This document shows positions 19,988-51,185 of a stretch of 64,000 nt of DNA, in pieces. Every line of letters starts with the position of its first letter. The stretch's first letter is position 1. The translations under genes and the position numbers were made by a program. The notes under the pieces were generated by a model. The model was given only the letters and a program-made list of their open reading frames with translations. It had not been told where the DNA came from and did not search any database. The DNA is from Caulobacteraceae bacterium (GTDB taxonomy: Bacteria > Pseudomonadota > Alphaproteobacteria > Caulobacterales > Caulobacteraceae): assembly GCA_030446805.1 (NCBI GenBank), contig JAUJMO010000001.1, positions 825,241 through 889,240 on the forward strand, read 5' to 3'.

Positions 19988-20025
19988 TGGTTCGCTTATA
20001 CCCCGTCCGGACCCTAGATGGGCTC

Positions 20026-20838: not shown

Positions 20839-20861
20839 GCCGGCGCCAGGCCGCCGCGCCT

Positions 20862-21743: not shown

Positions 21744-21846
21744 TGAACGTCCTTCAACAAAAACTCGACACGACGGCCCTGAAGGCTCAGGGCGCGGCGG
21801 CCTTAGAGCGCGGCCCTGAAGGTTCCGTCAACTTAGGTTGCGCCCG

Positions 21847-32938: not shown

Positions 32939-32966
32939 GGCCGGCCACCGGATTGTGAACACGGGA

Positions 32967-32994
32967 GGGGGTGCTGCGGCGACGCAGCACCCCC
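32967..32994 (+). terminator. strong GC hairpin between the two paralogs
   Basis: A perfect 12-bp stem (GGGGGTGCTGCG / CGCAGCACCCCC) closes a GCGA loop 28 bp after the first paralog's stop. Only TTC follows, not a long T run, so it may act as a terminator or as an RNA stability element for the upstream message. Confidence 0.6.
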
Positions 32995-33116
32995 TTCGCC
33001 GTTGAGGCGACTCGTCGGCTCCGGTATGAGCCTGCTGACGGTCGATGCTGGCGTCCTCTCGCCACATTGCCGGCCCTTTTCATGCCTTAGTTCAACCCCC
33101 TGAGGGGAGGCCGTTC

Positions 33117-34181: not shown

Positions 34182-34319
34182 CGTCCTGGCGGACGGCGAA
34201 GCGTCGCCGTCCCGCTTGCCTCTCGGGCGGTGTCCGTGTAAGGACGCCGCCCAATTCCGTTCCCGTGAACGCCCGCCGCCGCGCCTGTGCGCGGCGTTCG
34301 CTTTAGAGAAGACCCACCC

Positions 34320-35551: not shown

Positions 35552-35688
35552 CCCCGACGGGAGTTCAGGGCCAGGAACTTAGGCTAAGTCTTACAACGAT
35601 TTAATCACCAGAGCCCAATTGCTTGGGTGAGCTCTCGTCCATTCAGGCGTATGCTCACCGCCGTCTCACCCCGACAGAGGAGAGCGGA

Positions 35689-36009
35689 ATGGCTGAGCAG
35701 CAAGCGAACCGAACGAACCCTCTCATCGGCCTCCAGGTCTTCGACTTCACCGGTCGAAAGCTGGGCCACATCGAAGAGGTCAAGCTCCAAGCCCACACCG
35801 GCGAGATCGACCAGGTCACGGTCGAGGACGACGGCCTCTTGGGATTTCGAAAGAAACGCTTCTCGGTGGCCTGGCCCATGCTGAGCTATAGCGAGACCCG
35901 GCACGCCCTGGTGTTCGCGCCCGGCGTCCACCGCGATCACGAGGAGCACTTGCCGCCTCCCGAAGCGCGCTCGGAACCGACGGATCGGGTCCCCTGGCCG
36001 CACCTCTAG
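35689..36009 (+). CDS. PRC-barrel domain protein
   Basis: The 106-residue protein contains one PRC-barrel (about 12-65: NPLIGLQVFDFTGRKLGHIE, then a TGEIDQVTVED strand) and a short Pro/His tail. PRC-barrels stabilise protein complexes, as in RimM or photosynthetic reaction centres, but single-domain members have no fixed role. ATG at 35689 has a clear AGAGGAGAG site 4 bases upstream. The preceding 137 bp carries a short CCCAA-TTGC-TTGGG hairpin at 35614-35627. Confidence 0.75.
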   Translation: MAEQQANRTNPLIGLQVFDFTGRKLGHIEEVKLQAHTGEIDQVTVEDDGLLGFRKKRFSVAWPMLSYSETRHALVFAPGVHRDHEEHLPPPEARSEPTDRVPWPHL

Positions 36010-36075
36010 GCCCTCCCGGCTGTTCAGCGGCGGTGCAGCGGGTCATATAGCGGCTTTCCTTGCTCCGAGACCCTG

Positions 36076-37173
36076 ATGGCTTTGAAAGTTGCGATCGTGG
36101 GCTTGCCCAATGTGGGCAAGTCCACGCTGTTCAATGCGCTGACTCAAACGGCGGCGGCCCAGGCGGCCAACTATCCCTTCTGCACCATCGAACCGAATGT
36201 CGGCGATGTCGCGGTGCCTGAGCCCCGGCTGGAAAGCTTAGCCGCAATCGCAGGTTCCAAGGAGATCATCCCCGCACGCATCAACTTTGTGGATGTGGCG
36301 GGGCTGGTGAGGGGCGCCAGCAAGGGCGAGGGCCTCGGAAACCAGTTCCTGGCCACCATCCGGGACACGGACGCGATCGCCTTTGTGGCCCGGTGCTTCG
36401 AAGGCGGCGACGTCACCCATGTGGAGGGCCGGGTCGATCCGATCGACGATCTGGAGATCATCGAAACCGAGCTGATGCTGGCCGACCTAGAGAGCTTGGA
36501 GAAGCGGGTCGACAATCTGACCAAGCGGGCCAAGGGCGGGGACAAGGAGTCGGCCGCGACCCTGAAGCTGGTGGAGCTGGCGCTGACGGAGCTGCGGGCC
36601 GGGCGCCCGGCCCGGCGGGCGGACGTGCCCAGGGAGGAGGAGAAGGGCTGGCGGATGCTGCAGCTGCTGACCTCCAAGCCCGCGCTGTATGTGTGCAATG
36701 TGGACGAGGAAAGCGCGGCCGCGGGCAATGCGCTCTCGGCCCGGGTGTTCGAGCGCGCCCGGGAGGAAGGCGCGGAGGCGGTGGTGATCTCCGCCAAGAT
36801 CGAGAGCGAGATCGCCCTCCTCCCACCCGATGAGCGGGCGGAGTTCCTGGAGGCTGTTGGACTGGAGGAACCGGGGCTGAACCGGCTGATCCGGGAGGCC
36901 TACAAGCTCTTGGGGCTGCGGACCTATTTCACCGCGGGTCCCAAGGAGGCGCGCGCCTGGACGATCGACGCGGGAGCGACCGCGCCGCAGGCGGCTGGGG
37001 TGATCCACAGCGACTTCGAAAAAGGCTTCATCCGGGCGGAAACCATCGCCTTTGACGACTATCTGGCGCTGAAGGGCGAGGCGGGCGCGCGCGAGGCGGG
37101 CAAGCTCCGCGCGGAGGGCAAGGGCTATGTGGTCAAGGACGGGGACGTGCTGAACTTCCTGTTCAGCGGCTAG
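36076..37173 (+). CDS. ychF: ribosome-associated ATPase YchF
   Basis: YchF is an Obg-family P-loop protein that binds ATP and associates with ribosomes. The 365-residue protein has G1 GLPNVGKSTLFNAL, G3 VDVAGLVRGASKGEGLGNQF, NVDEE in place of NKxD (the change tied to ATP preference) and a C-terminal TGS domain (LLGLRTYFTAGPKEARAWTI, AYVVKDGDVLNF-like end). Length is typical. It begins 66 bp after the PRC-barrel gene. Confidence 0.95.
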   Translation: MALKVAIVGLPNVGKSTLFNALTQTAAAQAANYPFCTIEPNVGDVAVPEPRLESLAAIAGSKEIIPARINFVDVAGLVRGASKGEGLGNQFLATIRDTDAIAFVARCFEGGDVTHVEGRVDPIDDLEIIETELMLADLESLEKRVDNLTKRAKGGDKESAATLKLVELALTELRAGRPARRADVPREEEKGWRMLQLLTSKPALYVCNVDEESAAAGNALSARVFERAREEGAEAVVISAKIESEIALLPPDERAEFLEAVGLEEPGLNRLIREAYKLLGLRTYFTAGPKEARAWTIDAGATAPQAAGVIHSDFEKGFIRAETIAFDDYLALKGEAGAREAGKLRAEGKGYVVKDGDVLNFLFSG

Positions 37174-37182
37174 AGGCCCGGA

Positions 37183-38199
37183 TCAGGCCGCCTCGGCCGC
37201 CCTCTCCTGCCCCAGCACCCCCAGCACCTCGGCGGCGATCTTGAAGCTGCGCAGCCGGGCGAGGTGATCGTAGGTCTGGGAGGTCAAGATCAGTTCGTCG
37301 GCGCCGGTGCGCGCGATGAAGCCCTGGAGCTGGCGCCGGACGGTCTCCGGCGCGCCCATGGCGGTGCAGGACAGCGCCTCGGCCAACATGGCCCGGGCTT
37401 CGGGCGGGAGGGTGTCGGCGTAGCCCGGAGCCGGCGGGGGCAGCGGCCCGGGCCGGCCGGTGCGCAGGTTGACAAAGGCCTGCTGGACGGAGGTGGCGAG
37501 GAGCCCCGCCTCCGCCTCGGTTTCCCCGGCGAAGACGTTGAACCCGGCTGCGGCGTAGGGCCGAGCCAGATAGGCGGACGGGCGGAAGTCCCGGCGGTAG
37601 ACGTGAAGCGCCTGCTCCAGCGCACGGGGCGCGAAATGGCTGGCGAAGGCGTAGGGCAGGCCCAGCACGGCTGCGAGCTGGGCGCCGTACAGGCTGGAGC
37701 CCAGGATCCAGACGGGGACGTTCAGGCCGGCCCCGGGCACGGCGGTCACGCGCTGGCCGGGTTGAACGGGCGCGAAATAGCCGATCAGCTCCAGCACATC
37801 CTGCGGAAACTCATCGACCTCGCCTTGCAGGGTGCGGCGAAGCGCACGGGCGGTGAGCCCGTCCGTGCCGGGGGCGCGGCCCACGCCCAGGTCGATCCGG
37901 CCCGGATGCAGCGCGGCCAAGGTGCCGAACTGCTCGGCGATGACAAGGGGCGCGTGGTTGGGCAGCATGATCCCGCCCGCGCCGACGCGGATGGTGGAGG
38001 TCCCGGCGGCGACATGGGCCAGCGCCACGGCGGTGGCGGCGCTGGCCACCCCCGGCATATTGTGGTGCTCGGCCATCCAGTAGCGGCGATAGCCCCAGCG
38101 CTCGGCGTGCCGGGCGAGGTCCAGGCTGTTGCGCAACGCCCCGCCCGCGTCGCCGCCCTCCACGATGGGCGACAGATCAAGGAGGGAGAAGGCGGTCAT
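37183..38199 (-). CDS. luciferase-like flavin monooxygenase (LLM family)
   Basis: The 338-residue protein matches the MsnO8-type bacterial luciferase-like family. Seen: [56 protein letters not shown] and [14 protein letters not shown]. It is predicted to use reduced flavin to oxidise an unknown substrate. ATG at 38199 fits the family; the longer frame to 38394 has no signal. It is convergent with ychF and marks the left edge of the accessory island. Confidence 0.87.
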
Positions 38200-38539
38200 G
38201 GGCCCGATATAGGGGCCGGGCGATCGGGTGCGCGGATGATCCGGCCCAGCCGACCCCCTCTGGGCGCCTGACCTTGGCGCCTGGCGAGCGCGGCTGGAGC
38301 CGATCGGTACGGACGCGAGCCATGGGATGGAGCGCGCGGGCGAAGGCGCTGCCGTCCGTGAGTTCGCTAGCCACTCGCAGCCTGGAGCCCCCACCAGCCT
38401 TAGCCAGCAGCACCATCCTCCCTAGTGATGTCCGCTTCGCGCCAGGAGCAGACATCGGCCCCAAGCCGAGAGCGGACCTTAGGACGGTCTATCGGCTGCC
38501 GACCGTTGCTCACCTCACTCGGGGGAGGCAGAATCGGGC
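38200..38539. other. gene-free island border
   Basis: I see no credible gene in these 340 bp. Base composition drops relative to the flanking luciferase-like gene. The stretch contains one copy of the palindromic repeat at 38428-38455 and a nearby AGAGCGGACCTTAGG half-copy. It is the left border of the low-GC accessory region. Confidence 0.5.
38428..38455. repeat. island palindromic repeat, copy 1
   Basis: ATGTCCGCTTC and GGAGCAGACAT are near-complementary arms around GCGCCA. The unit matches copies 2 and 3 (GTCCGCTTTGCGCCAGAAGC followed by AGAC) with few substitutions. Both arms can pair with one mismatch, so the transcript would fold into a hairpin. Confidence 0.7.
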
Positions 38540-38944
38540 ATGCGAATGGCTCTCTGTGCCACACCGTTCTCCAAGTGTGCGCTGCTCGCGCTGAGCATCT
38601 GGGGCTGCGCTCCGGATCCTTCACCCCAGCTGGCCTCGCAGGACATTCGATTGGCCAGGGCTCTCGTTGGCGGCTGGGTTCGCGAGGGTGATGACTGCGC
38701 CGGTGATGCGGGGGTCGTCTACGCCGCCGATGGGACCTTCGCTGCTTACGACGTGAGCGGGACGTGGAGCTTGAGACGCAATCGACTAACCACCGTGATC
38801 TTGGAACGAGGCGAGCCCGACGAGCTGGCGGTCAGGCTTCCGCAGCCGGAGCGTCAGGTCTCGACGATCGTATCCACGTCGAACAACCGGCTGATCGAAC
38901 GCTGGAGCGACGGATCGATCCACACCTTTGCCCGGTGCCGATAG
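38540..38944 (+). CDS. small hypothetical lipoprotein
   Basis: The 134-residue protein has a signal with lipobox-like SIWGC (residues about 19-23, CALLALSIWGCAPDP). A short beta-rich domain follows, of the kind that measures out GGWVREGDDCAGDAGVVYAADGTFAAYDVSGTWSL-type repeats of one lipocalin-like fold. There are three cysteines after the lipobox. No named family recognised; function unknown. It lies in the accessory island and has more A/T than core genes. Confidence 0.6.
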   Translation: MRMALCATPFSKCALLALSIWGCAPDPSPQLASQDIRLARALVGGWVREGDDCAGDAGVVYAADGTFAAYDVSGTWSLRRNRLTTVILERGEPDELAVRLPQPERQVSTIVSTSNNRLIERWSDGSIHTFARCR

Positions 38945-39055
38945 AAGGTCCGCTGCGCGCCGGCAGCCGTCATTCAGTCGACCCGCGAGGATCGGCCCGA
39001 GGTCAGCCTAAAGGGGTGAGCGGACACCAGAACCTTCCTGGGCCATAAAGGGTAG

Positions 39056-40048
39056 ATGACGGGTGCTCGGTTTCGTGAGGCAGTCGATATCGCGGCCGGA
39101 TTGGTGGTGGCCAGCGGCGCTGCCTCGGCCCTCATAGCTTTGCTGACTGCAGAAGTTCGCCTCTTCACGCTGGCTTTCGCCATCGTGTCGGTCGTCGCGT
39201 TTATTCTCGGCCTGCCGATGTATCTGGCGGCCCGAGCGACGCGAAGGGACACTCCTGTCCTGCTATCGGTCATGGGTTTTATCGTCGGCGCAGCGATTCC
39301 CAGCATGCTGGTGCTCGCGGGCCCCGCAGCGGACCAAGCTTCAATCGGTGGAACGGCCACGATCATCGATGGCTCCTACACGGCGGCGGGATGGCTGCAG
39401 AATCTCGCGCTGGTCGGGACGTTTGGACTTCTCGGCACGGGTGCGGCGCTTCTGTTCTGGCGAGTCGTCCGCCGAAGAGAGCCGAGTGAAGACGTGCACG
39501 GGGAACAGTCATCCCATAGGACCTTACGGACGACTCTGTTGTCCGTTACGGCCGCCGGTTTCATCGTAGCGGCCTTTATCGTTCCTCGGGCTACTGCTGA
39601 CCGAAGTTGCCACAACCCGATGCGAGACGGTCGCAACTCCATCGCGCCAGTCGCGAGCTTCGATCTTCGCGTTGGAGTCGACGAATGGCGGGCCATCGAA
39701 AGTGAGATGGAACAGTTCCGGCGTGCCGGCGAGTGGTTGATTAGAAGCGATGTCAGAACCGACGAGAGCTTTCGCTGGCTACAAATCAGTATGTGCAGGC
39801 AGTCGGGGACCAACATCTTCGTTCAAGGCCTGCCTGACCAAAGCGAGGTGAGCTTCTTTATCTTTCAGCCGCAGGGCGGCTCAAGCTGGGAGCAGGACTT
39901 CCAAACGCTCTACAAACGCATCAGCGGCCGGTGGCCAACCAAGATCGTCTTCGAGGATCATCAAGGCAGAGAGTCCAGTCCGCCTGACTGGGTCGATGCG
40001 AAGGCCGGAATCGGTGAGGCCACGCCGAGTGGTAACCGCAACCCCTGA
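39056..40048 (+). CDS. hypothetical membrane protein
   Basis: The 330-residue protein has about five hydrophobic helices in the first 180 residues (AAGLVVASGAASALIALL, LFTLAFAIVSVVAFILGL, SVMGFIVGAAIPSMLVLAG, ALVGTFGLLGTGAALLFW, TTLLSVTAAGFIVAAFIV). A soluble domain follows to the end, with two cysteines (SCHNPM, SMCRQSG). I do not recognise the family. ATG at 39056 with GGGTAG just before it. It is in the same direction as the small lipoprotein, 111 bp away, and could form one unit with it. Confidence 0.6.
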   Translation: MTGARFREAVDIAAGLVVASGAASALIALLTAEVRLFTLAFAIVSVVAFILGLPMYLAARATRRDTPVLLSVMGFIVGAAIPSMLVLAGPAADQASIGGTATIIDGSYTAAGWLQNLALVGTFGLLGTGAALLFWRVVRRREPSEDVHGEQSSHRTLRTTLLSVTAAGFIVAAFIVPRATADRSCHNPMRDGRNSIAPVASFDLRVGVDEWRAIESEMEQFRRAGEWLIRSDVRTDESFRWLQISMCRQSGTNIFVQGLPDQSEVSFFIFQPQGGSSWEQDFQTLYKRISGRWPTKIVFEDHQGRESSPPDWVDAKAGIGEATPSGNRNP

Positions 40049-40150
40049 GTGTGAACCCAGCCGAACCGGCAAACGTGCAGGCTCAGGCTCTATTCCGAAA
40101 GCGGACGGGCTGAACGTCGGCTGCGAGTCACAAGCGGTCACCTGCCCTGC

Positions 40151-40174
40151 GTCCGCTCTGCGCCAGAAGCGGAC
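40151..40174. repeat. island palindromic repeat, copy 2
   Basis: GTCCGCT at 40151-40157 and AGCGGAC at 40168-40174 are perfect inverted arms around CTGCGCCAGA. It lies just downstream of the 113-residue gene on the minus strand, so it could act as its terminator. Confidence 0.75.
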
Positions 40175-40191
40175 GTTGGTGCTGCCCGATG

Positions 40192-40533
40192 CTACTTCGA
40201 GGTCGAAGCACCTTCGGTTGCAAGGTCCTCGCGCCAGATCACGCCGTTTCCCCAGTAACGAATGAGGCGCGTAGTGCCCTTGTTGACTCGGATCTCGAAC
40301 CAGGACTGATCACACCACAACGCCTCGCTGCCCGTTGTCATCCCTCCAAGCTCGATTTCACCAACCTCATCACCCTCACACGCGATCACGTCCCACAACA
40401 TCTCGACCCCGCCGATCGACGCCTGGATGGTGCCCCCCCACTCGTCCCTTGGCTCAAAGAGGATGGTGTATGGGCCCTCGACCCCGACGAACGACGCGCT
40501 GAAGGGGGGCGGAACCGTTGTTCTGGTTGGCAC
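40192..40533 (-). CDS. hypothetical protein flanked by palindromic repeats
   Basis: I chose GTG 40533 because AGGAGG precedes it by about 10 bases. The 113-residue product (MPTRTTVPPPFSASFVG..., PYTILFEPRDEWGGTIQA, WFEIRVNKGTTRLIRYWGNG, VIWREDL) has the even composition of a real soluble protein. The open frame extends further upstream to 40923, but that part is Arg/Ser/Cys-rich and looks non-coding. Repeat copies 2 and 3 sit about 20-40 bp from its two ends. No family recognised. Confidence 0.55.
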   Translation of the reverse strand: MPTRTTVPPPFSASFVGVEGPYTILFEPRDEWGGTIQASIGGVEMLWDVIACEGDEVGEIELGGMTTGSEALWCDQSWFEIRVNKGTTRLIRYWGNGVIWREDLATEGASTSK

Positions 40534-40570
40534 AGCTTCTTTGCCTCCTACGACACCGAGACGAAGCCAG

Positions 40571-40594
40571 GTCCGCTTTGCGCCAGAAGCAGAC
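40571..40594. repeat. island palindromic repeat, copy 3
   Basis: GTCCGCTT at the left pairs with AAGCAGAC at the right with one mismatch, around TGCGCCAG. It is nearly identical to copy 2 and lies 38 bp upstream of the 113-residue gene's GTG. Confidence 0.75.
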
Positions 40595-40743
40595 TCTCCC
40601 CCTGCACGCGAGCTGGCGGCCGGATCGCACGATCCGGGTCGACGGCAGTCCCATTTACCCTTCTGGACGACAGAACAGCGACGGTATCCACTCGAAGCGC
40701 CGTAACGCTGCGTGCGGGCGCAGCTCATCGCAGCCTGGCAAAA

Positions 40744-41574
40744 ATGGGTCAGACAATCGCTACACTCGCCAGCTGCGTTGCCCAGTGGCGACCGCTCGAG
40801 CAGGAACGTGCGCAAGTGCTCGCCACTCACCCGGTGAGTGGTGAAGAGCGGCTGACCGAGACACCGGCGTGGCTTTTTCGCGGAGAGCGCGAGGAGTACC
40901 CGACCACCTGTTCGTCCTTTCACCGCTTCTCACAGTGCCAGCTGTCTGAAGCGGCTCAGGCCGAGGTGCTTGCAGCCACCAAGCGGTTGGACTTCATCCT
41001 CCGCGAGCGCGGCCTGCATCCGATGTACTCAACGGCGCTCCTGCAGCACTACTCCCTTCCGACCGAGATGCTGGACATGACGTCCTCACTGGACGACGCT
41101 GCCGCGTTCGCTGCCTACCGAAACGACGGGTCTCCGGGAGTCCTGATGGCGTTCCCGGCGTCAGTGCTGGCGGCGAACGGAGTTCTAATCGAGCTGAGCG
41201 AGATCCACTTTGCGAGGCGGCCTCGCCACCAGCATGCCTACTGCTGGTTCCACCGGACCGAGCCAGACTTGCAGGAGGGTGGGCTGCAGAGCGCATTGAA
41301 AGCCAGGCGGGCGTTATTCCAAGGCAGCCAGCCTGATCTGGAGCGATAGGTAGAGCACTACCATTCCATTTGCGGCCCCCCGAACACCGACCCTACGTCC
41401 GGCCTGTTGAACAAGTTGCTCCACGACGAGGTGATGCTGGATAGGACACGCGGCGTGCGTTTCACGATGAGCACTGAGGCCACGAATTGGCTGGAGGAAC
41501 GAATACCCTTCGCCCCGATTCCGCTCCGAAGGACAGCGGACGACATGCTCGAACCAGTCTGGGAGCGGTTCTAG
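40744..41574 (+). pseudogene. FRG-domain protein gene interrupted by an in-frame TAG
   Basis: From ATG 40744 the frame encodes 201 residues with the FRG motif (WLFRGERE, F45-R46-G47) and the family's second block LQHYSLPTEMLDMTSSLDDA. It meets TAG at 41347-41349. The same frame then stays open to TAG 41572-41574. It reads VEHYHSICGPPNTDPTSGLL, then DEVMLDRTRGVRFTMS and LEERIPFAPIPLRRTADD, which looks like a protein C-terminus of this family. One base change therefore splits a gene of about 276 codons. The N-terminal part may still be made. Amber readthrough is possible but less likely. FRG domains have no agreed biochemical function. Confidence 0.7.
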
Positions 41575-41593
41575 GATATGCGAGCGGCGCAGG

Positions 41594-41812
41594 CTGGGCC
41601 TGCTGCGGTGTGGCAGACGCGCGCTGTTCTCCATCCTGGTGCTGATGGCGATCGTGACCACCCTAATGGCCTCGCCGCTCTTCGAACTGGCTTACGGCCG
41701 CAAGGCGCGACAGCAAGGCACCCTTGGTGCGCTTGAGGACACGGCAGGCCGGGAGTTCGACGTGGGCGCTTCCATCATCTTCACTCGCATCACCCTTCAA
41801 GGACCTGCATGA
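41594..41812 (+). pseudogene. C-terminal remnant of a cation/proton antiporter gene
   Basis: The frame from about 41594 to TGA 41810-41812 encodes LFSILVLMAIVTTLMASPLF followed by ELAYGRKARQQGTLGALED. This matches the last membrane helix and tail of CPA2/Kef-type Na+(K+)/H+ antiporters. There is no start codon with a ribosome site and the rest of the about 400-residue transporter is absent, so this is a stub. Its stop overlaps the KAP gene start (ATGA). Identification rests on family memory of that helix, not on a search. Confidence 0.55.
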
Positions 41813-44757
41813 GCAAGCAACCGCCCCCCGACGAGCTCAGCGAGGCCGAGCGGGGCTCTACGCCGAGCTGGAGCGCCCTTGCTGAGCAGGTCGCTGTGGC
41901 CCTGGGCGTCCGGACGCTCCGCTCCCCCACCCTCCGGACGGTGATCGAGCGGGGGGTACGGTACGTTCGCGGTGGTGAGGGCGACCGCGCGCTCGTATTC
42001 GACCGCCGCGCGCTCTTTCTGGGGTTCGTCGCAGCCGGCCAGGAGGATCCGGACTCGATCCACTACGGGAACACCGCCTCCTGGTTCGTCCATTGGTTGG
42101 GGCGGCGGGTCGGTCGGGCGAACCTTGGCTCGGCGCTCGCCCGCGCCCGCATGGCGGACACGGATCAAGTGTTCCGGGCCCTTTCAAGCGGCCGCAAAGT
42201 GACGCTGTCCCCGTCCGTCTACGGCCTCTTGCGGCCGGCGGAGGCCCTCGCCGCCTCCACGATCGACCGTCCCGCCTTTGAAGCTCGGCACGTCTTCAGC
42301 GTCATGATCCTCAGCGGGGCCTTGACGGCCCAGGTGCAGGATCTCCTCGGGGTGAAGCTCACGCCCCGCGACCTGGACGAACTCAAGCGGGAGCTGGCGG
42401 AACGCATCCTGGAGAACCCGGAGCCGCAGGAGACGCGCGAGCGATGGTTCCGGGCCCTTGAACTCGTCCACAGCCTCCCCGACGAGGAGGGTCACGGCGC
42501 ACCTGTCGACGAGCCGGACGGAGTGTCTCCCTTCAGGAATGACGCGCCGGGCGGAGCGGACGTGCTGGGCACCGAGCGGGACGTCCGCGCGCTGGCCCGC
42601 CTCATGTGCCTGAAGAGCTCGGCCCCGCTCGCGGTCGCCATCTTCGGGGAATGGGGCTCCGGCAAGTCGACCTTCATGGATCGGCTCGACTGGGAGGTGG
42701 AGGCCATCACCGCGGAAGCCTCACGGAGCCCGTCTTCTCCAGTAACACCCGAGACGGAGTTTGTGCGCCGGGTGGTGCAGGTGCGCTTCAACGCTTGGCA
42801 CTTCGTGGACGCCAATCTGTGGGCCAGCCTTACGGCGGAGTTCTTCGATCAGCTCCGCGCAGGCGGGCACGCCCTCGCGCGGAAGGCCAGCCACGCGGAG
42901 CTGGTGGCCAGGGTGAACAGCCACGTTCACGCCCTCAGCACCGAGACGGAGAAGACGCGTCGGTCGGTGGACGAAAGCGGCAAAACCCTGCGTGACGCTC
43001 AAAGCCGGCGCGACGAGGCGGCCGTAGCCGTCCGAAGCGCAGGCCGACACGCCCTTGGAGAAGCCTCGCTCACTGTTCTGGGCGAGCTCTACGCCTCGCA
43101 GCGCGCGAACCTGTCCGCCCTCGGCCTCGCCGTCTCAGGCGTCGACACGGCCAAAGCCGTGGACGCGATCGTCGACGCCGCCAAGAGCTCCGACACAATA
43201 GTCGGGCGCTGCACGGTCATCGCACGAGTCCTCGCCAAGTCCCGCTGGCGGCTTTGGACGACCGTGATCATGACCGTCATCTTCCTGGGGGGCGTCGCAG
43301 CTCTCTGGGCCCGGCGCGACGACGCTTTCACCCTTGCGATCGGGATGGTCAGCGCCGTCGGCGGCTTCGGCATGGCGTGTCTGGCGGCCGCGCCCGCAAT
43401 CCGCATCGTCGCCGAGGCGACCCGGCGCGCAGCGGACATCGCGGGGCGCGTCGACCAGGCGGAGGGTGACGCGCTCAAAGCGCTGCTCGGCGCCGAGGCG
43501 GGCCTGCAGGACGCCGCGCGAGAGGCCGAGGCGCGCCAGTCCGCGGCCCGGACGGCCGAGCAGCGGCTGGCTCGGTATGTGGATCCGAAGGCGGCAGCCA
43601 ACCCGCCTCGCCTTCTGCGCTACGTGCTGGAGGATGATCCGGACACCCGCGCGCTTCAGGCCGACCTCGGACTGCTCGCCCGCGCCCGCAGGCTGTTCGA
43701 GGCCGTCGACCAAATCGTCCGTGAGGAGCGCGGCAAGCCCCACGGCTCCCAGCTGGACGGCGAAGTGCCCGACCGGGTGGTCATCTACATCGACGACCTC
43801 GACCGCTGCACGGAGGCGCAGGTCTACAACGTCCTGCAGGCCATCCACCTCCTGCTTGCGTTCGAGCTGTTCGTGGTGGTGGTCGGAGTCGACGCTGGGC
43901 GGGTGGAGAGCGCACTCGCCCATGCGCTGAAGGAGCCCGCCTCAGCGGGCGGCCACCCGGTCGCGGAGGGGGGCGGGGGCGAGACTCCGAATCAGAGGCT
44001 ACGCCAGGAGGCGGCGCGCTATTTGCAGAAGATCTTCCAAGTCGCCTTCTGGCTCGAGGGGCTGCACTCCGGGGCGGACGGGGGGAGCTTCGGCCGCTAT
44101 GTCCAATCGCTGACGGAGTTCGACACGGCCGTCGACCATTCTGGAGCGCCCACGGCCTCCTCCCCGTCCCCGGCGCCGCCCGAAAGCGTCGCGGACTCCG
44201 GCCCCGACATGCCAACCAGCCCTCCGCCCGAGGAGTTCAAGCCCCTGGATGAAGGTTCGCCGGCGCTCGCCGCGATCCGGCTCTCGCCAGCGGAGGCGGA
44301 GTTCCTGGGCTCCCCCATCATAGGCGCGCTCGCGGCCACCACCCCAAGGGCCGTCAAACGCCTAGTCAACACCTACCGCCTGGTAAGAGCCCGGCTGGCC
44401 GACAGCGGAGTCTCGGTCCTGGGTGCGGGCGGCGCGCCGCCCGCCTACCCCCTCATCGCCCTGCTCGTGGCCGTGGAGACCGGGCAGTCCGTCGCGGTCG
44501 CCGACGACCTCTACGAGGGCCTTATGGAGCTAAGCCCTGGCGAGGCCATCATGCAGGCCGCGTTGACGGACATCCGGAGCGGCGATCTGAAGTCCGAGGC
44601 GAAACCCCACAGGGTGACCCAGGCCGTCGCCGGTTGCCCCGCACTCCGCCCGGCCCTCGAAGCTGCCTACCGCCTGCGGGGCGCAAGTCTGGTCGCTGGA
44701 GACATGCAGGAGGTGGCTCGGGTGGCCAGGCGGTACTCGTTCAATCGCTACGCCTGA
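41809..44757 (+). CDS. KAP-family P-loop NTPase with membrane hairpin
   Basis: The 982-residue protein has a soluble N-terminal module (1 to about 240, with a ClpN-like FEARHVFSVMILSG stretch) and a KAP NTPase domain. Walker A is G280-EWGSGKS-T288; Walker B is VVIYIDDLDRC near 657-667. Between them lie a coiled segment (about 385-430) and two membrane helices near 482-502 and 506-535, as in KAP proteins. A Pro/Ser-rich insert (about 780-830) precedes the C-terminal KAP segment TPRAVKRLVNTYRLVRARL. AAGGA precedes ATG 41809. PifA of plasmid F, a KAP protein, blocks phage T7; a defence role here is an inference from family and island context. Confidence 0.88.
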   Translation: MSKQPPPDELSEAERGSTPSWSALAEQVAVALGVRTLRSPTLRTVIERGVRYVRGGEGDRALVFDRRALFLGFVAAGQEDPDSIHYGNTASWFVHWLGRRVGRANLGSALARARMADTDQVFRALSSGRKVTLSPSVYGLLRPAEALAASTIDRPAFEARHVFSVMILSGALTAQVQDLLGVKLTPRDLDELKRELAERILENPEPQETRERWFRALELVHSLPDEEGHGAPVDEPDGVSPFRNDAPGGADVLGTERDVRALARLMCLKSSAPLAVAIFGEWGSGKSTFMDRLDWEVEAITAEASRSPSSPVTPETEFVRRVVQVRFNAWHFVDANLWASLTAEFFDQLRAGGHALARKASHAELVARVNSHVHALSTETEKTRRSVDESGKTLRDAQSRRDEAAVAVRSAGRHALGEASLTVLGELYASQRANLSALGLAVSGVDTAKAVDAIVDAAKSSDTIVGRCTVIARVLAKSRWRLWTTVIMTVIFLGGVAALWARRDDAFTLAIGMVSAVGGFGMACLAAAPAIRIVAEATRRAADIAGRVDQAEGDALKALLGAEAGLQDAAREAEARQSAARTAEQRLARYVDPKAAANPPRLLRYVLEDDPDTRALQADLGLLARARRLFEAVDQIVREERGKPHGSQLDGEVPDRVVIYIDDLDRCTEAQVYNVLQAIHLLLAFELFVVVVGVDAGRVESALAHALKEPASAGGHPVAEGGGGETPNQRLRQEAARYLQKIFQVAFWLEGLHSGADGGSFGRYVQSLTEFDTAVDHSGAPTASSPSPAPPESVADSGPDMPTSPPPEEFKPLDEGSPALAAIRLSPAEAEFLGSPIIGALAATTPRAVKRLVNTYRLVRARLADSGVSVLGAGGAPPAYPLIALLVAVETGQSVAVADDLYEGLMELSPGEAIMQAALTDIRSGDLKSEAKPHRVTQAVAGCPALRPALEAAYRLRGASLVAGDMQEVARVARRYSFNRYA

Positions 44758-45064
44758 GGTTCTGCCCGGGTGGGGACGCGTCGCAACTCTGCAGGGTTTA
44801 GCCCTAGAAGCAGACGTTCACCTCCCGCTAGGGGAAGCGAACGCCCGCCTTTGCTGTCCATCTTCTGGGCAGACTGCCTCAAAGCAGACCTTGTAAAGGT
44901 CCGCTTTGTGTCAAAACCAGACCTTCCCGCCAGGTGGAACTTGCTTTGGCTGCGGGTGGCCAGCGGGCTTGACCACCCCTGGCGCGGGGGACGGCCGGCA
45001 GCAAGGCGCCCAGCGGAACGCGCTGACGCCCCCGTCGTTGGGCCTGACTGCACGGGAGATGGCG
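44758..45064. other. gene-free right border of the island
   Basis: These 307 bp contain no credible gene. They hold a half repeat (GAAGCAGACGTT near 44807-44818) and the compound hairpin at 44881-44923, then a ribosome site for the hydrolase at 45065. Confidence 0.5.
44881..44923. repeat. island palindromic repeat, compound copy
   Basis: AAAGCAGACCTT (44881-44892) pairs with AAGGTCCGCTTT (44896-44907) around GTA with one mismatch, making a long hairpin. The same GGTCCGCTTT then opens a second, poorer unit ending AACCAGACC at 44923. The arms are the same sequence as in copies 1-3. It lies between the KAP gene and the hydrolase and may also work as a terminator. Confidence 0.65.
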
Positions 45065-45787
45065 ATGTCGGGCGACATGAAGCTGGTGAGCGCGGCGGAC
45101 GGGTTTGCGCTGGGGGCCTATCACGTGGAGGCCCAGGTTCAGGACCAGGAAACCCAGCGGCGCGGCGGGCTGGTGCTGCTGCAGGAGATCTTCGGCGTGA
45201 ACGCCAACATCCGGGCGCTCGCCGACAGTTTCGCGGCGGACGGGTTCGAGGTCGTGGCGCCGTCGGTGTTCGATCGGATCGAACCGGGGTTCCAGGCGGG
45301 CTATGACGAGGACGGGTTCCAGAAGGGTCTGGCGACCGCCGGGGCGACCAATTGGGACGTGGCCACCGGCGACATCCAGGCCGTCGTCGACTGGCTGAAC
45401 GGGCCGGTGTTTGTGGCGGGCTTCTGCTGGGGCGGCACGGCGGCCTGGCTGGCGGCCGCGCGGTGCCACGGGATCACGGCGGCCTCGAGCTTCTACGGGC
45501 ACGCGATCAAGGGTTTCCTGAGCGAGAAGCCCAAGTGTCCCATCATCCTGCACTATGGCGAGCGCGATCCCTTCGTCCCGCCGGAGGATGTGGACGCCAT
45601 CGAGCAGGCTCTGCCGGACATCCGCGTGTTCCGCTACGACGCGGGCCACGGCTTCTTCTCGGACCGGGCGGGGGCGATGGGCGGGGGAGACGCGCGGTTC
45701 GTGAACGGGTTCGACGCGGAGGCCTCGGCGCTGGCGCGCCGGCGCACGCTGCAGTTCTTCGACAACTACGACGCGGTGCCGGACTGA
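45065..45787 (+). CDS. dienelactone hydrolase family protein
   Basis: The 240-residue alpha/beta hydrolase has LLQEIFGVNANIRALADSFA, the Cys nucleophile in GFCWGGTAAWL, Asp in YGERDPFVPPEDV and His in YDAGHGFFSDR. This is the Cys-Asp-His triad of dienelactone hydrolases, which open lactone rings in aromatic catabolism; many chromosomal homologs act on other esters. I chose ATG 45065 with GGAG 6 bases upstream; ATG 45059 is in frame but inside that site. It begins the core region right of the island. Confidence 0.88.
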   Translation: MSGDMKLVSAADGFALGAYHVEAQVQDQETQRRGGLVLLQEIFGVNANIRALADSFAADGFEVVAPSVFDRIEPGFQAGYDEDGFQKGLATAGATNWDVATGDIQAVVDWLNGPVFVAGFCWGGTAAWLAAARCHGITAASSFYGHAIKGFLSEKPKCPIILHYGERDPFVPPEDVDAIEQALPDIRVFRYDAGHGFFSDRAGAMGGGDARFVNGFDAEASALARRRTLQFFDNYDAVPD

Positions 45788-45830
45788 CCCCTCAGCAGAA
45801 CCAAAGCCGCGGCGTCAAACCGCTCGAAGG

Positions 45831-47489
45831 TCACTGACGCGAGGCGGCGGACGGAACCCGCGCCGCGCCGAACTCGGCGGTCGCACGCCAGCCGGGCCAT
45901 CCGGCGCCGTCAGCGACTGAACGACCGACGGCGTAGGCCGCACGAGCCTCCTGGGCGGCGCCTTCCAGGGTCCAGGATCGATCGAACTCGTCGGAGGGTT
46001 GGTGGTAGCGCTCGCGGTTGTAGCGGTCGACCAGCGCGCTTCCGGCCGGGCGGCCGCCTGCAACCAGGTCCCGGCCGATGCGGAAGGCCAGGGCGGGAAC
46101 GCCGCGCTTGCTAAAGGCGAAGTGGTCCGAACGATAGTACCAGCCGGCTTCGGGGTTGGGCTCCGGCTCGACGCGAAGGCCCTGGGCGGCGGCGGCCCGG
46201 GACAGGTCGTCCTCGAGCGTGGTTCGCCCCCCGCCGATCAGCTCGATGCTGCGCGAGCGGGGCAAGGCCACGTGCGGGTCGAGGTTGATCACCGCGGCCG
46301 TGGTCTCCAGCGGACGCAGCGGATGGGCGGCGTAGTACTCCGCGCCGAGCAGTCCCCGCTCCTCCGCCGTCCAGCCGGCGAAGAGCAGGGTGCGGGCGGG
46401 GCGTGGGCCGCGCGCAAAGGCGCGGGCGATCTCCAGCAGCTCGGCAGTCCCCACGGCGTTGTCCACCGCGCCGTTGTGAATGCTGTCGCCGGTGGCGTCC
46501 GGGCGGGGGCCCAGGCCGTAGGCGTCCCAATGGGCGCCGTAGAGCACCGCTTCCTCGGGCCGTGTCGCACCGGTCAGGCGGGCGATGATGTTCCGGCTGC
46601 GGAGCGGGCTGGCGCGCGTCTCGAAGCGGGCCGACAGCCGAGCGTCGCCCAGCGGGCGGCCGCGGAAGCCCGGGCGCTGCGCCTGCGCCTTGAGGGCGGC
46701 GTAGTCCAGGCCGGCGCGGCGGATCAGGTCCTGAGCCGCTTCCAGCCGCAGCCAGCCGGAAAGGAAGGCGGGGTCGGGGGTGAGCTGGGCCGGGCGGGCG
46801 ACCTCCACCAGGGGCGCGTCGGCGCCGGTCTGGACGATGAGCCACGGGTAGGAGGCGGCGGCCGTCTCGTGGATGGACAGCAGGCCCGCGGCGCCGCGTC
46901 TTCGCGCTTCTTCTCCCTTAGTGCCGACCCGGCCGTAGTAGCTGAGGTTACGGCCGCCGAAGGGGCCTGAACCGGCCTCGAAGTCCGGGTCGTTGGCCAG
47001 CACGACCACGATCTTGCCTCGGACGTCGAGGCCCTCGTAGTCGCTCCAGCCCAGCTCGGGCGCATGGACGCCGTATCCGGCGAACACCAGGGGGGCCCCA
47101 TCCAGCGTGTAGCGGCCCGCCCCACGGACGCTGGCGGTCGCGTCCTCGCCCAGGCGAAGCGGCAGCGCCGCGCCGCCGACCCGCAGGCTCAGGCTCCCCT
47201 CCCCGATCCGGTCGTATCGCGTGAGCTCCACCTCCTGGAACCAGGAGCCGTTCGGGCCGCCGGGCTCCAGCCCCGCGGCGGCGAACTGGGCGGCGAGGTA
47301 GTCGAGCGCCTTGGCCTCGCCAGGGCCGCCGGGACCGCGGCCCAGGAACTCGTCCGACGACAGCACGCGGACGTGCTCGCGGATGCGCGCGGCGGAGATC
47401 TCCGGGGCGGACCCGCTGCTTACGGGCGCGGTGGCGCAGCCCGCGACCAGGGCCCCGAGCAGCAGGGTGGCGAGCGCCCTCCCCCTCAT
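45831..47489 (-). CDS. M28 family zinc metallopeptidase lipoprotein, copy 1
   Basis: The 552-residue protein has a lipoprotein signal (ALATLLLGALVAGCA, lipobox VAGC). A protease-associated domain (about 110-250) is inserted in the M28 peptidase. Zinc residues are in GAHWDAYG (H320, D322), GAVDNAVG, TAEERGLLG, VINLDPH and the late YHQPSDEFD His. It is predicted to be an envelope aminopeptidase. The ATG at 47489 overlaps the stop of the next gene upstream (ATGA). It is a diverged tandem duplicate of that gene. Confidence 0.88.
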   Translation of the reverse strand: MRGRALATLLLGALVAGCATAPVSSGSAPEISAARIREHVRVLSSDEFLGRGPGGPGEAKALDYLAAQFAAAGLEPGGPNGSWFQEVELTRYDRIGEGSLSLRVGGAALPLRLGEDATASVRGAGRYTLDGAPLVFAGYGVHAPELGWSDYEGLDVRGKIVVVLANDPDFEAGSGPFGGRNLSYYGRVGTKGEEARRRGAAGLLSIHETAAASYPWLIVQTGADAPLVEVARPAQLTPDPAFLSGWLRLEAAQDLIRRAGLDYAALKAQAQRPGFRGRPLGDARLSARFETRASPLRSRNIIARLTGATRPEEAVLYGAHWDAYGLGPRPDATGDSIHNGAVDNAVGTAELLEIARAFARGPRPARTLLFAGWTAEERGLLGAEYYAAHPLRPLETTAAVINLDPHVALPRSRSIELIGGGRTTLEDDLSRAAAAQGLRVEPEPNPEAGWYYRSDHFAFSKRGVPALAFRIGRDLVAGGRPAGSALVDRYNRERYHQPSDEFDRSWTLEGAAQEARAAYAVGRSVADGAGWPGWRATAEFGAARVPSAASRQ

Positions 47490-49147
47490 CGGCGCCGGGC
47501 CGCGGACTGGTCGCGGACTGGCCGGAACTCGCTGGTGGATCGGTAGTTCGGCCATTCCCGGCTGTTGGCGATGTCCAGACCGAGGCGCTGGAGCACGGTC
47601 GCGTCCTGGACCATGCCCAGGAAGTTCCAGCTCTCGTCGTACTCGTCCGCCGGCTGGTGGTATTTGTCGCGGCGGTAGGCGTCCTCGGCGGTCTTGGCCG
47701 CGGCCGTGCCGCCCACCACCAGGTCCTGCCCGCTGTCGACATAGAGCATGGGCACCCCGCGCTTGGCCAAGGGGAAGTGATCCGAACGGTAGAAATAGCC
47801 CGCCTCGGGCGACTGGTCGGGGCGGATCACCCGATTGTTCTCGGCCAGCACAGCCTGGAGCCGATCCTCCAGTTCGCTCTGGCCGGAGCCGATCACCAGA
47901 AGGTCGCGTGCGGGCCCGAGCGGAGTGAGCGCATCGATGTTGAAGCCGGCCGCCGTCGTCTCGAGCGGGTAGAGCGGGTTGGCCGCATAGTATTCCGAGC
48001 CCAAGAGGCCTTTCTCTTCGACGGAGACGACCACAAACACGACCGAGCGCTCGGGTCGGGGACCCTGGGCGAAGGTGCGGGCGATCTCGAGGATGGCCGC
48101 GACCCCGGTCGCATTGTCCACCGCGCCGTTATAGATGCGGTCGCCTCGAGCATCCGGAGCGCCCACCCCCAGGTGGTCCCAGTGGGCGGTGTAGAGCACG
48201 GTCTCGTTGGGTCGGGTGCGGCCGGGCAGCCGGGCCACCACATTCTTGGACGCGACATTGACTTGGCGCAGCGCATAGTCGGCGCTGAAGGTGGCGTTGG
48301 CCAGCGACACCGGGCGGAAGTTCGGCGTCTGGGCCTGCTTCTTCAGGGCTTCGAAGTCCTGCCCGGCGCGGCGGAACAGGTCCACCGCCACGTCCCGCTG
48401 GATCCAGCCTTCCAGGGGCGGGTGGGTGGCCGCCGGGTCGGCGCGTACGATGTCGAACATGGTGTTGGTGTTGGAGTTCTTGACCGTGGCCCAGCCGTAG
48501 GAGGCGGGCTCGGTTTCGTGCACGATCAGGATGCCGGCCAGGCCCTGGCGTGCGGCCTCCTCGTACTTATAGGTCCAGCGGCCGTAGTAGGTCATGGCCT
48601 TGCCGCCGAAGGGGCCCTGCCCCGTTTCGAAGTCCGCGTCGTTGACCAGGACCACGCCCACCTTGCCGCGCAGGTCCATGCCCTTGAAGTCGTCCCAGTT
48701 CCGCTCGGGCGCCTTGATGCCGTAGCCGAGGAAGACCAAGGGTGCGTTCTCGATGGTGACGCGGTCGCGCTTCTGCAGGCTGGCGCGGATGGCGATCTGC
48801 TCGCCCTGGGTCAGCGCCTGGCGGCGGCCGCCGACGGTGAAGGCCGCGGTGGGCTGGCCAACGATGTCGGACTGGAGCAGCGGCACGTCCTGCGTCCAGG
48901 AGCCGTTGCGACCCCCAGGCTGCAGGCCGGCGGCGGCGAACTGCTGGGACAGATAGGCCACGGTCTTGGTCTCGCCGGGCGTGCCGGGACCACGACCCTC
49001 GAAGGCGTCGGAGGCCAGGGTGCGGACGTGCTCGGCCAAGCGGGCGGGGCTGATGGCGGCAGGAGGAGCGGCCGGGGCCGAGGTGCGCTGCGTTGCGCAG
49101 GCGGACAGCAGCAGGGCGGCGGCGAGCGAGAGGAGCGCGGTTCTCAT
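47486..49147 (-). CDS. M28 family zinc metallopeptidase lipoprotein, copy 2
   Basis: The 553-residue paralog has lipobox LLSAC (SLAAALLLSACATQ), the same inserted domain and M28 ligands AHWDHLG (H322, D324), GAVDNATG, SVEEKGLLG and a YHQPADEYDE His. It keeps every zinc ligand, so both copies look active. It is translated first and coupled to copy 1. ATG at 49147 begins the signal; a longer frame to 49183 adds a Ser-rich segment with no site. Tandem M28 genes suggest different peptide preferences. Confidence 0.88.
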   Translation of the reverse strand: MRTALLSLAAALLLSACATQRTSAPAAPPAAISPARLAEHVRTLASDAFEGRGPGTPGETKTVAYLSQQFAAAGLQPGGRNGSWTQDVPLLQSDIVGQPTAAFTVGGRRQALTQGEQIAIRASLQKRDRVTIENAPLVFLGYGIKAPERNWDDFKGMDLRGKVGVVLVNDADFETGQGPFGGKAMTYYGRWTYKYEEAARQGLAGILIVHETEPASYGWATVKNSNTNTMFDIVRADPAATHPPLEGWIQRDVAVDLFRRAGQDFEALKKQAQTPNFRPVSLANATFSADYALRQVNVASKNVVARLPGRTRPNETVLYTAHWDHLGVGAPDARGDRIYNGAVDNATGVAAILEIARTFAQGPRPERSVVFVVVSVEEKGLLGSEYYAANPLYPLETTAAGFNIDALTPLGPARDLLVIGSGQSELEDRLQAVLAENNRVIRPDQSPEAGYFYRSDHFPLAKRGVPMLYVDSGQDLVVGGTAAAKTAEDAYRRDKYHQPADEYDESWNFLGMVQDATVLQRLGLDIANSREWPNYRSTSEFRPVRDQSAARRR

Positions 49148-49188
49148 GGCCACCACGCTAGCCATCGCCGCGCCCGTCGACAACCGGG

Positions 49189-49704
49189 TCAGCGCTCGAT
49201 CAGATTGCGCACGTCGGGTTCGCGTTCGAGCGCGCGGCAGAGCCAGGCCTGGGCGACCATCAGCGCCACCCCCGCCGCATAGGCCGAGAAGATCCCGCCC
49301 GGATAGCGCCCTCCCCGCCCGAACTCGCTGATCTGCAGCAGGATGGCGAAGGCCGCGAAGGCCAGCACGCCCAGCACCCCCGCCACGGACCAGGGCGTCT
49401 GGCCGAAGCCCGCCGCGAAGGTGATCCAGACATATTGCTTCAGCAGGCGCCGTATGGGGCCGCCCAGCAGGCTGGCGGCCAGGGTGAGCGCAAAGAAGCC
49501 CAGCGGCGCGCCCACGAACACGAAGAGCTTGTCGCGCAACGCCCCGGGCAGGACGTCAAAGGCCCGAACCACCACCAGGGCGAAGATCAAGCCGCCGAAC
49601 AGGCAGGCGGAGGTTTGCATGCGCTTGAAGTTGCGCCAGGCCTGGGTGTGCAGCTCGGGCCTGGGTTTGGGCGGCTCCACCTGCGGGCCTGAGAGTCGCG
49701 GCAT
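49189..49704 (-). CDS. hypothetical four-helix membrane protein
   Basis: The 171-residue protein has a Pro-rich cytoplasmic start and four hydrophobic helices (SACLFGGLIFALVVVRAF, LFVFVGAPLGFFALTLAA, WSVAGVLGVLAFAAFAILL, GGIFSAYAAGVALMVAQAW). I do not recognise a named family. ATG 49704 has GGAGGAGG upstream. It is encoded just upstream of the M28 pair with a 41-bp gap, so it may be co-transcribed with it. Confidence 0.7.
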   Translation of the reverse strand: MPRLSGPQVEPPKPRPELHTQAWRNFKRMQTSACLFGGLIFALVVVRAFDVLPGALRDKLFVFVGAPLGFFALTLAASLLGGPIRRLLKQYVWITFAAGFGQTPWSVAGVLGVLAFAAFAILLQISEFGRGGRYPGGIFSAYAAGVALMVAQAWLCRALEREPDVRNLIER

Positions 49705-49791
49705 GCGCCTCCTCCCTGCGCTTACGGGGGAAACATAGTCGCCCGCACGCCGGGGTGGGGACACGACACCGTGATCGTGAAGGCCGCAGCT

Positions 49792-50319
49792 TCAACCGCC
49801 TGGATAGCTCACCAGGGCCGTGACGGGCACGTCCAGGCCGCGCAGCCGCCCGGCGCCGCCGAGGTCAGGCAGGTCGATCACGAAGGCGGCCGCCGCCACC
49901 TCCGCCCCGCCCTGCCGCAGCAGGTCGACGGCGGCCACGGCGGTGCCGCCGGTGGCGATCAGGTCGTCGACGAACAGGACGCGCTCGCCGGGCCGGATCG
50001 CGTCGTGGTGCATCTCGATGGCGTCGCTGCCGTACTCCAGCGCGTATTCCACGGCGTAGGTGCGGTGCGGGAGCTTGCCGCGCTTGCGCAGGGGAATGAA
50101 GCCGGCCGAAAGCTGGTGGGCCACCGCCCCGCCCAGGATGAAGCCGCGGGCCTCCGCCCCGGCGACCTTGTCGATCTTGGCGCCGGCCAGGGGCTGGACC
50201 AGTTCGTCCACCGCGCGGCGGAAAGCGCGCGCATCGGCGAACAGGGTGGTCACGTCGCGGAACACGATCCCCGGCTTGGGATAGTCCGGGATGGTGCGGA
50301 TGTGGTCGGCCAGGTTCAC
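49792..50319 (-). CDS. apt: adenine phosphoribosyltransferase
   Basis: Apt recycles adenine to AMP with PRPP. The 175-residue protein has [20 protein letters not shown], the adenine-binding [12 protein letters not shown] and the PRPP motif [17 protein letters not shown] at 50319 overlaps the mtnP stop (ATGA). The pairing is functional: MtnP releases adenine and Apt recaptures it. Confidence 0.95.
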
Positions 50320-51185
50320 CGGCGAAGCACCCGGCCGGCCACGGCGTCCAGCTTGGCGACCACGGCGGGGTCTCGGTGGTCCGGCGGGGTGACGACCGCG
50401 AAATCGAGATTGGTGTCGATGGGGCTGGGTTCGCGGGGCGTGCGGGCGAGGATCGCGATCAGGCGGCGGACCGTCTCGCGGGCGCGATCGGCGTTGGCCC
50501 GCATGACGCTCAGGACCGAGCCTACGTCAACGGCGGCGTGCGCCTCGTTCCAGCAGTCGTAGTCGGTGACCATGCACACGCTGGCGTAGGGAAGCTCGGC
50601 TTCCCGGGCGAGCTTGGCTTCGGGCATGTTGGTCATGCCCAGCACGTCGCAGCCCCAGGACCGATAGAGTTCGGACTCCGCGCGGGTGGAGAACTGGGGG
50701 CCCTCCATGGCCAGGTAGGTTCCCCCTTCCACCACCTCGGCGCCGGCTTCTCGCGCGGCCTGGGCGGCGAGCGAGGCCAACCGCGGGCAGACGGGGTGGG
50801 CCATGGAGACGTGCGCCACCAAGCCCTCGCCGAAGAAGGACTTCGGTCGGGCGAAGGTGCGGTCGATGTACTGGTCGACGACGCAGAAAACGCCCGGAGC
50901 CAAGCGATGCTGCAGCGAGCCCACCGCCGAAAGAGAGAGGACGTCCGTGCATCCGGCGCGTTTCAGGGCGTCGATATTGGCCCGGGCGTTGACGGCCGAA
51001 GGCGGCAGGCGGTGCCCCTGCCCGTGCCGGGGAAGGAAGGCCAGGCGAACACCGCCCAGGGTTCCGTGGGTGATCTGGTCGGAGGGAGCGCCCCAGGGGG
51101 TCTCGACCGTCTCGCGTCGAACCTCCTGCAGGCCGGGGATGTCGGTGACGCCGCTGCCGCCGAGGACGCCCAGGGTCCAGTTCAT
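50316..51185 (-). CDS. mtnP: S-methyl-5'-thioadenosine phosphorylase
   Basis: MtnP splits methylthioadenosine into adenine and methylthioribose 1-phosphate. The 289-residue protein has [63 protein letters not shown] and [19 protein letters not shown]. Two residues in the nucleoside site (SAVGSL, TN) favour methylthioadenosine over purine nucleosides in general. The start at 51185 is the family start. Confidence 0.92.

Follow-up and report, generated by a model that had tools for sequence, protein, structure and literature searches.

Gene content of the locus

The window is the whole 64,000-nucleotide stretch that was analysed (positions 825,241 to 889,240 of contig JAUJMO010000001.1, assembly GCA_030446805.1, Caulobacteraceae bacterium). 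The gene under study codes for a KAP-family P-loop NTPase, and it lies in a variable block between a luciferase-like monooxygenase gene and a dienelactone hydrolase gene. The positions of all features in the window are listed in Table 1.

Pfam analysis of the uninterrupted 982-codon frame, which runs from an ATG start to a stop, assigned the protein to KAP_NTPase (PF07693) with 66.9 bits against a gathering cut-off of 20. Both Walker motifs could be located by motif scan, and two hydropathy peaks (residues 482–500 and 509–527, values 1.93 and 1.91) were present between them. An earlier note on this DNA had proposed a 982-residue KAP NTPase with intact Walker A and Walker B and an embedded membrane hairpin, and these three points were borne out. 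The full-length structure model had a predicted local distance difference test score (pLDDT) of 58.7 and a predicted template modelling score (pTM) of 0.31 and served only for helix positions and disorder; in this low-confidence model the hairpin helices spanned residues 481–500 and 506–526. Membrane segments inside the P-loop domain are presumably a trait of many KAP proteins, and they are present here by prediction.

The FNAW motif was common to all 15 KAP proteins compared, and exactly two hydropathy peaks between Walker A and Walker B were found in 10 of them. The Walker B pattern failed in three others (L065, L066 and L095), where an open-ended scan revealed three to four peaks including a neighbouring pair. 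One peak was seen in a Desulfobacterales protein (L012) cut by a contig end, and the last protein (L013) was left unscored after the Walker A pattern failed. The Pro/Ser-rich insert reads as a predicted disordered linker, because disorder is predicted there (pLDDT <50) and the stretch differs among the aligned relatives. A search of solved structures with the full-length alignment gave five weak matches (best E 0.024), four to immunity-related GTPase-type proteins and one to a methyltransferase subunit, which were set aside as generic P-loop or hydrophobic similarity.

Table 1. Features of the window (residue numbers are those of the KAP protein; ORF, open reading frame)
Feature	Position	Strand	Basis
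KAP-family P-loop NTPase, 982 amino acids	41809–44757	+	Open frame, Pfam
Clp/Hsp100 N-domain-like module (predicted), residues ~33–207	41905–42429	+	AlphaFold2 model, Foldseek, VIA-align, PDB profile match, hhalign with shuffles
Walker A GEWGSGKST, residues 280–288	42646–42672	+	Motif scan
FNAWHF motif, residues 327–332	42787–42804	+	Motif scan
Predicted long helix ahead of membrane hairpin, residues 359–437	42883–43119	+	Low-confidence full-length model
Predicted transmembrane hairpin, residues 481–526	43249–43386	+	Hydropathy, model helices
Predicted long helix past hairpin, residues 528–591	43390–43581	+	Low-confidence model
Walker B VVIYIDDLDRC, residues 657–667 (IDDLDRC, 661–667)	43777–43809	+	Motif scan
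Pro/Ser-rich insert, residues 748–817	44050–44259	+	pLDDT <50, alignment of relatives
Variable block between luciferase-like monooxygenase and dienelactone hydrolase genes	38190–45081		Not found in a same-genus genome
FRG-domain frame, 201 amino acids from an internal ATG, ends at TAG	40744–41349	+	Pfam FRG, reading frames
Possible remainder of the FRG gene, 74 open codons past the TAG	41350–41574	+	Reading frame; FRG coding inferred
113-codon ORF, GTG start, candidate "orphan"	40192–40533	-	ORF list
Other 113-codon ORF, inside the 330-codon ORF 39056–40048, candidate "orphan"	39707–40048	+	ORF list
Open stretch, TGA overlapping the KAP start (ATGA)	41591–41812	+	Reading frames

The N-terminal domain

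The earlier note had regarded the N-terminal module as novel and unexplained by the family. No Pfam family matched the first 240 residues above its cut-off; structure prediction, in contrast to the note, gave a Clp N-domain. An AlphaFold2 model of the domain, built from four sequences, reached pLDDT 76.3 and pTM 0.74 and consisted of two four-helix repeats. Foldseek comparison of this model gave 150 matches at E <=10. Among the best 50, 45 were titled Clp or Hsp100/104 proteins, two (4irf) were HSP101/ClpB2, two (4xbi) carried the title of a malarial proteostasis protein, and the remaining one (6elu, rank 38) was an unrelated protein; many of these rows are chains of one and the same entry, and several of the structures are complexes. 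The top three VIA-align rows were all Hsp104 or ClpC, with Z 10.7 and a root-mean-square deviation of 3.1–3.6 over 131–146 residues. Helical models can attain a similar Z through a common arrangement, and the Clp assignment therefore rests on several agreeing kinds of evidence and not on Z.

Sequence profiles gave evidence in both directions. Eight proteins share the first ~240 residues, and their alignment was used as a profile. Against all PDB chain sequences (E <=10) this profile retrieved three sequences, all of them HSP101/ClpB2 (E 0.019, 0.73 and 0.76). Its hhalign comparison with 22 Clp N-terminal segments from related genomes scored 28.8 (single-pair E 0.0015), a value reached by none of 200 column-shuffled templates (maximum 18.8) and not by the reversed template (12.3).

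Set against these results, the best Foldseek match had an E of only 0.06 and none fell below 0.001. The hhalign match covered only residues 133–202 with an HH probability of 16%, and a forced global alignment gave E 0.007 and an HH probability of 2.4%. Pfam Clp_N (PF02861) matched none of the eight N-domain proteins at E <=10, and an hmmsearch with the N-domain profile through 3416 ORFs, the Clp ORFs of 30 loci among them, retrieved no Clp protein at E <=10. On balance, residues ~33–207 are largely explained by the predicted model as a Clp/Hsp100-type N-domain with a double Clp_N repeat fold. The relation is called remote because the Pfam Clp_N model does not recognise the domain. A "novel fold" for residues 1–240 was dropped in favour of this assignment on the AlphaFold2, Foldseek and VIA-align results.

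The variable block and the distribution of relatives

Comparison with a genome of the same genus (93% complete) revealed matches to window positions 32382–38190 at 94.5% and 45081–50782 at 95.2%. When positions 36000–45300 were used as a query, with 40 of 214 candidates scored, none of the 6.9 kb between these flanks was found. The two contigs of that genome continue past the break for 186 and 241 bases before they end. The longer of these stretches lies upstream of its hydrolase gene (L080, 5701–5941) and is unrelated to the window, and the site thus holds other sequence. In a further genome (G005), the hydrolase gene, 53% identical, directly adjoins YchF, whereas the monooxygenase gene and the block intervene in the window's own genome. 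By genome comparison the block is a variable site, because the same-genus genome is without it and hydrolase and YchF are adjacent in the other.

The low-GC island of the earlier note held for only part of the block. Low G+C content was restricted to approximately 39–42 kb (0.60–0.65), and five upstream frames in the block were measured at 0.60–0.64, whereas the KAP gene has a G+C content of 0.70, and 0.85 at third codon positions, similar to the flanking genes. The decay that had also been claimed fits the FRG frame, with its in-frame TAG, by inference, and not the KAP frame, which is intact.

The Clp-N/KAP gene is rare and patchy and is not a core gene. Among 100 relatives, four genomes including its own matched the whole protein, only its own at full length and the other three over 54–65 residues. 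Within the class, where at most two candidates per genome were scored, 12 of 385 genomes matched including its own, and full-length matches were confined to its own and one other (G436, 39% identity); the same two were the only ones to match the N-domain alone. The N-domain profile was found in one of 398 genomes of the phylum, its own, and there only in the window copy. A pattern scan of genome contigs returned seven relatives among 59 matches, two of them (L008 and L009) nearly full length at 40% identity. Six plasmid records matched the KAP protein, and the N-domain was present in three of these. A second, short KAP gene was observed elsewhere in the window's own genome, with a 450-amino-acid frame scoring 136.7 bits (L067, G000:C1:268000-284000, positions 7048–8394).

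Neighbourhoods of the relatives

Genes of defence or toxin type were found beside all three plasmid Clp-N/KAP loci and beside none of three chromosomal ones (L008, L009 and L015); the Desulfobacterales locus was left out owing to its contig end. On a plasmid of Rhizobium sp. CC1099 (L027), the KAP gene overlaps a SIR2_2 gene by 4 nt, which in turn overlaps a nucleoside deoxyribosyltransferase gene (Nuc_deoxyrib_tr) by 4 nt; a ParA-like protein (PADLOC PDC-M28B, 80 bits) is encoded further on, and an FRG-TPR gene lies ~7 kb from KAP. The ParA-like gene forms a pair with a nitrilase-like gene (sub-threshold CN_hydrolase) next to this KAP-SIR2 cluster (18332–22017). On a plasmid of Agrobacterium sp. 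T29, the KAP gene overlaps a DUF2971 gene by 4 nt and is followed by VapBC and an integrase. The KAP copy on a plasmid of Rhizobium sp. 32-5/1 is in several broken frames, of biological origin or through sequencing error, and lies close to a HEPN/nucleotidyltransferase gene and an AbiEii gene that is split in two. The relatives are thus not restricted to syntenic core positions lacking a mobile or defence link.

The front domain was swapped in more distant KAP relatives, with TIR in two (L011 and L095) and the effector-associated domain EAD11, in two stretches, in a third (L010). In a further one (L065, 7504–11589), the front matched EVE below threshold (18.2 bits; cut-off 23) and the protein matched the Clp-N profile weakly (E 2e-5); the front of L066 resembles this one by eye. 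In the TIR-KAP locus of a Sinorhizobium sp. RAC02 plasmid (L095, 5126–16717), the gene is accompanied by DUF4062-SIR2, DarT and macro genes together with another SIR2 gene, and these surroundings are a dense cluster of NAD/ADP-ribose type. The Desulfobacterales Clp-N/KAP protein carries an extra front stretch (8966–9950), which is reminiscent of an endonuclease/exonuclease/phosphatase fold whose catalytic residues are altered; no family of this kind was found there by Pfam.

Possible function of the KAP protein

The KAP P-loop core, the hairpin between Walker A and Walker B and the Clp/Hsp100-type N-domain are supported by computation. The gene was probably gained by horizontal transfer, and a candidate role in anti-phage defence is plausible. 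It is possibly an unusual immune gene, because the KAP family is linked to virus defence and the plasmid relatives stand beside defence-type genes. We propose, with a probability of roughly 0.45, a single-gene system consisting of an immune-type ATPase anchored in the membrane, in which Clp-N serves for recognition, KAP is the switch and the hairpin acts on the membrane as effector. The Clp-N domain would recognise an infection signal; a phage protein, a Clp adaptor, an exposed degron and a misfolded protein are candidates. Binding of the signal would cause the KAP ATPase to assemble, and the hairpin would then damage or depolarise the membrane, leading to abortive infection by analogy with the KAP protein PifA. 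Two of the plasmid relatives apparently couple this core to distinct effector-type genes (SIR2 with nucleoside deoxyribosyltransferase, or DUF2971). The defence locus suggested by the earlier note is therefore kept in part: the patchy distribution, the block missing from the same-genus genome and the plasmid relatives among toxin and defence genes agree with it, whereas the three chromosomal relatives have ordinary neighbours.

Several results weigh against an immune role. No effector could be recognised within the KAP protein or downstream, the relation of the N-domain to Clp is remote, the full-length model was poor, and the codon composition of the gene is host-like, with no sign of recent transfer. 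The 10 neighbouring ORFs scanned at the three chromosomal loci contained no defence-type family; they gave sigma factor, MdoG, dehydrogenase, DEAD helicase, PRC-barrel, GH43, binding-protein, TPP-enzyme and MFS matches, and one ORF matched at sub-threshold level only. No relative was present in 50,697 phage records or, by pattern scan, in viral contigs, results on which a phage or prophage origin was also rejected. A passage of PMC8594841 asks whether immunity is the task of PifA and RexAB at all and considers that PifA may not have evolved for it.

It is rather unlikely, in our estimate, that the protein is an orphan leftover in a decaying block, the sensor or switch half of a KAP-plus-effector operon of the kind seen on the Rhizobium plasmid, from which the effector was lost. 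Two plasmid relatives do have an overlapping downstream effector-type gene, while the next downstream gene in the window is the dienelactone hydrolase gene at the block edge, and the upstream FRG frame is interrupted. The KAP frame itself, however, is uninterrupted, and its codon composition is like that of the host. Three more relatives of the short form likewise occur alone, suggesting that this form is self-sufficient. The two plasmid copies that have an effector operon exceed it in length, having ~195 additional residues ahead of Walker A.

An inner-membrane ATPase for stress or protein quality control is an unlikely explanation as well. Here Clp-N would recruit misfolded or tagged proteins on which the KAP core acts, and immunity would not be its task. 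Clp N-domains bind substrates and adaptors, several of the matched structures are complexes, and the three chromosomal relatives stand alone among ordinary genes, all of which would suit such a role. A rare, patchy gene outside the core set would suit it less, as would the toxin- and defence-type surroundings of the plasmid relatives and the existence of forms of this core with TIR or EAD11.

Returning to the immune-type ATPase, a more specific form of it, in which a membrane-bound KAP immune ATPase has acquired a Clp/Hsp100 N-domain as its sensor and guards protein quality control, seems improbable at present. If it is true, the cell would read disturbed proteostasis, or a phage protein bound to a degron or adaptor, and answer with membrane damage; in the plasmid relatives the response would run through NAD- or nucleotide-attacking partners (SIR2, deoxyribosyltransferase). 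To our knowledge, the sensed signal is unknown for most KAP NTPases. A substrate-binding domain of Hsp100 type at the sensor position would offer a concrete class of ligands (degrons, unfolded proteins, Clp adaptors), and such a sensor would tie bacterial immunity to protein quality control.

The FRG frame and other features of the region

An FRG domain (PF08867) could be identified upstream of the KAP gene (40744–41346, 39.3 bits against a gathering cut-off of 25), as the earlier note had stated. The frame meets an in-frame TAG at 41347 followed by 74 further open codons, in which no Pfam match was found, and the FRG gene looks interrupted. The proposal that FRG and a 113-residue orphan are partners of KAP fared less well. 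Among 289 genomes of the class the FRG peptide was found only in its own, and in plasmids it was not found. By tblastn (E <=0.01), neither it nor the minus-strand 113-amino-acid ORF matched at 18 loci around KAP relatives, in a test that is insensitive, the peptide also missing the FRG gene of the CC1099 plasmid, which was the only one seen near a Clp-N/KAP gene. FRG as a conserved partner of KAP is not supported, and the conserved pair was rejected as a candidate. Although the FRG frame ends ~460 bases upstream of KAP on the same strand, matches PADLOC PDC-S15 models and may encode an ART-type NADase effector (a passage of PMC9503650 places FRG in the ART superfamily and suggests that it might act as an NADase), a multi-gene defence system of KAP, FRG and perhaps the 113-amino-acid protein is highly improbable given the apparent interruption, this distribution and the difference in G+C content between the upstream frames and KAP.

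The minus-strand 113-codon ORF matched no Pfam or NCBIfam family, and besides its own match only one weak match was found in 100 relatives. The open stretch that overlaps the KAP start may resemble a transporter tail; Pfam found nothing there. A degenerate 32-nt repeat was found in five copies (38428, 38946, 40149, 40569 and 44897), 69–100% identical to the reference copy; the search covered 38000–45200, and the octamers at the core of the repeat recur in other parts of the window. The element contains a GTCCGCT...AGCGGAC-like palindrome. No tRNA was found in the 64-kb window, which ruled out a tRNA-anchored island. The neighbouring genes at 45831–47555 and 47486–49183, both on the minus strand and ~65% identical in DNA, are apparently a tandem duplication, and their products are presumably peptidase-like.

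Comparison with known systems

The window protein and PifA of the F plasmid both have a KAP core. The PADLOC PifA model, however, gave only 24 bits in two short stretches, a score on which membership was rejected. The Walker A region falls at PifA profile positions 26–66 of 720, and therefore there is no room in PifA for a 240-residue N-terminal module. Earlier work cited in PMC8594841 suggests killing by PifA through depolarisation of the membrane once T7 proteins are sensed, and the same source states that RexAB and PifA were each active against only two or three phages.

QatA of qatABCD also shares the KAP core and was the best PADLOC match and the only NCBIfam match of the window protein. 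The score against NF041923 was 50.5 bits compared to an equivalog cut-off of 600, by which membership was rejected, and no QueC- or TatD-type family was found in the six neighbouring window ORFs scanned with Pfam. According to PMC13279940, purified QatA binds DNA and seems to assemble into heptamers or octamers, and without QatA and QatD defence persists against one phage and is lost against some others. By analogy, KAP proteins may act as modifiers rather than effectors.

A related arrangement was the KAP-SIR2-deoxyribosyltransferase cluster of Rhizobium sp. CC1099 plasmid pCC1099_2, with 38.7% identity in the N-domain and 27% in the KAP core. Its KAP protein is longer (1219 amino acids, with ~195 more residues before Walker A) and is followed by two overlapping effector-type genes. 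The window protein also matched PADLOC PDC-S20 at 27.1 bits; PDC-S models presumably denote single-gene defence candidates.

Compared to the Clp/Hsp100 N-domain itself, the modelled KAP N-domain shares the double four-helix repeat. It differs in having 10–14% identity (top ten VIA-align rows), in the lack of a Clp_N Pfam match and in being joined to KAP, not to an AAA+ unfoldase. PMC8195603 describes that KAP can displace STAND NTPases in systems with effector domains, PMC7159879 reports that ClpN repeats are found on vWA proteins, as a rare variant, in conflict systems, and PMC10907252 and PMC10853773 place KAP NTPases in diversified or counter-invader systems. Literature word searches in one open library returned no paper on a Clp-N and KAP pairing, and we regard the predicted fusion as a new domain combination within a known candidate-defence family. 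The TIR-KAP and EAD11-KAP proteins have the same core with the FNAW motif and differ from the window protein in the N-terminal module, which is TIR or EAD11 in place of Clp-N. The exchange of Clp-N, TIR and EAD11 in front of one KAP core suggests a general sensor-switch plan as in STAND ATPases.

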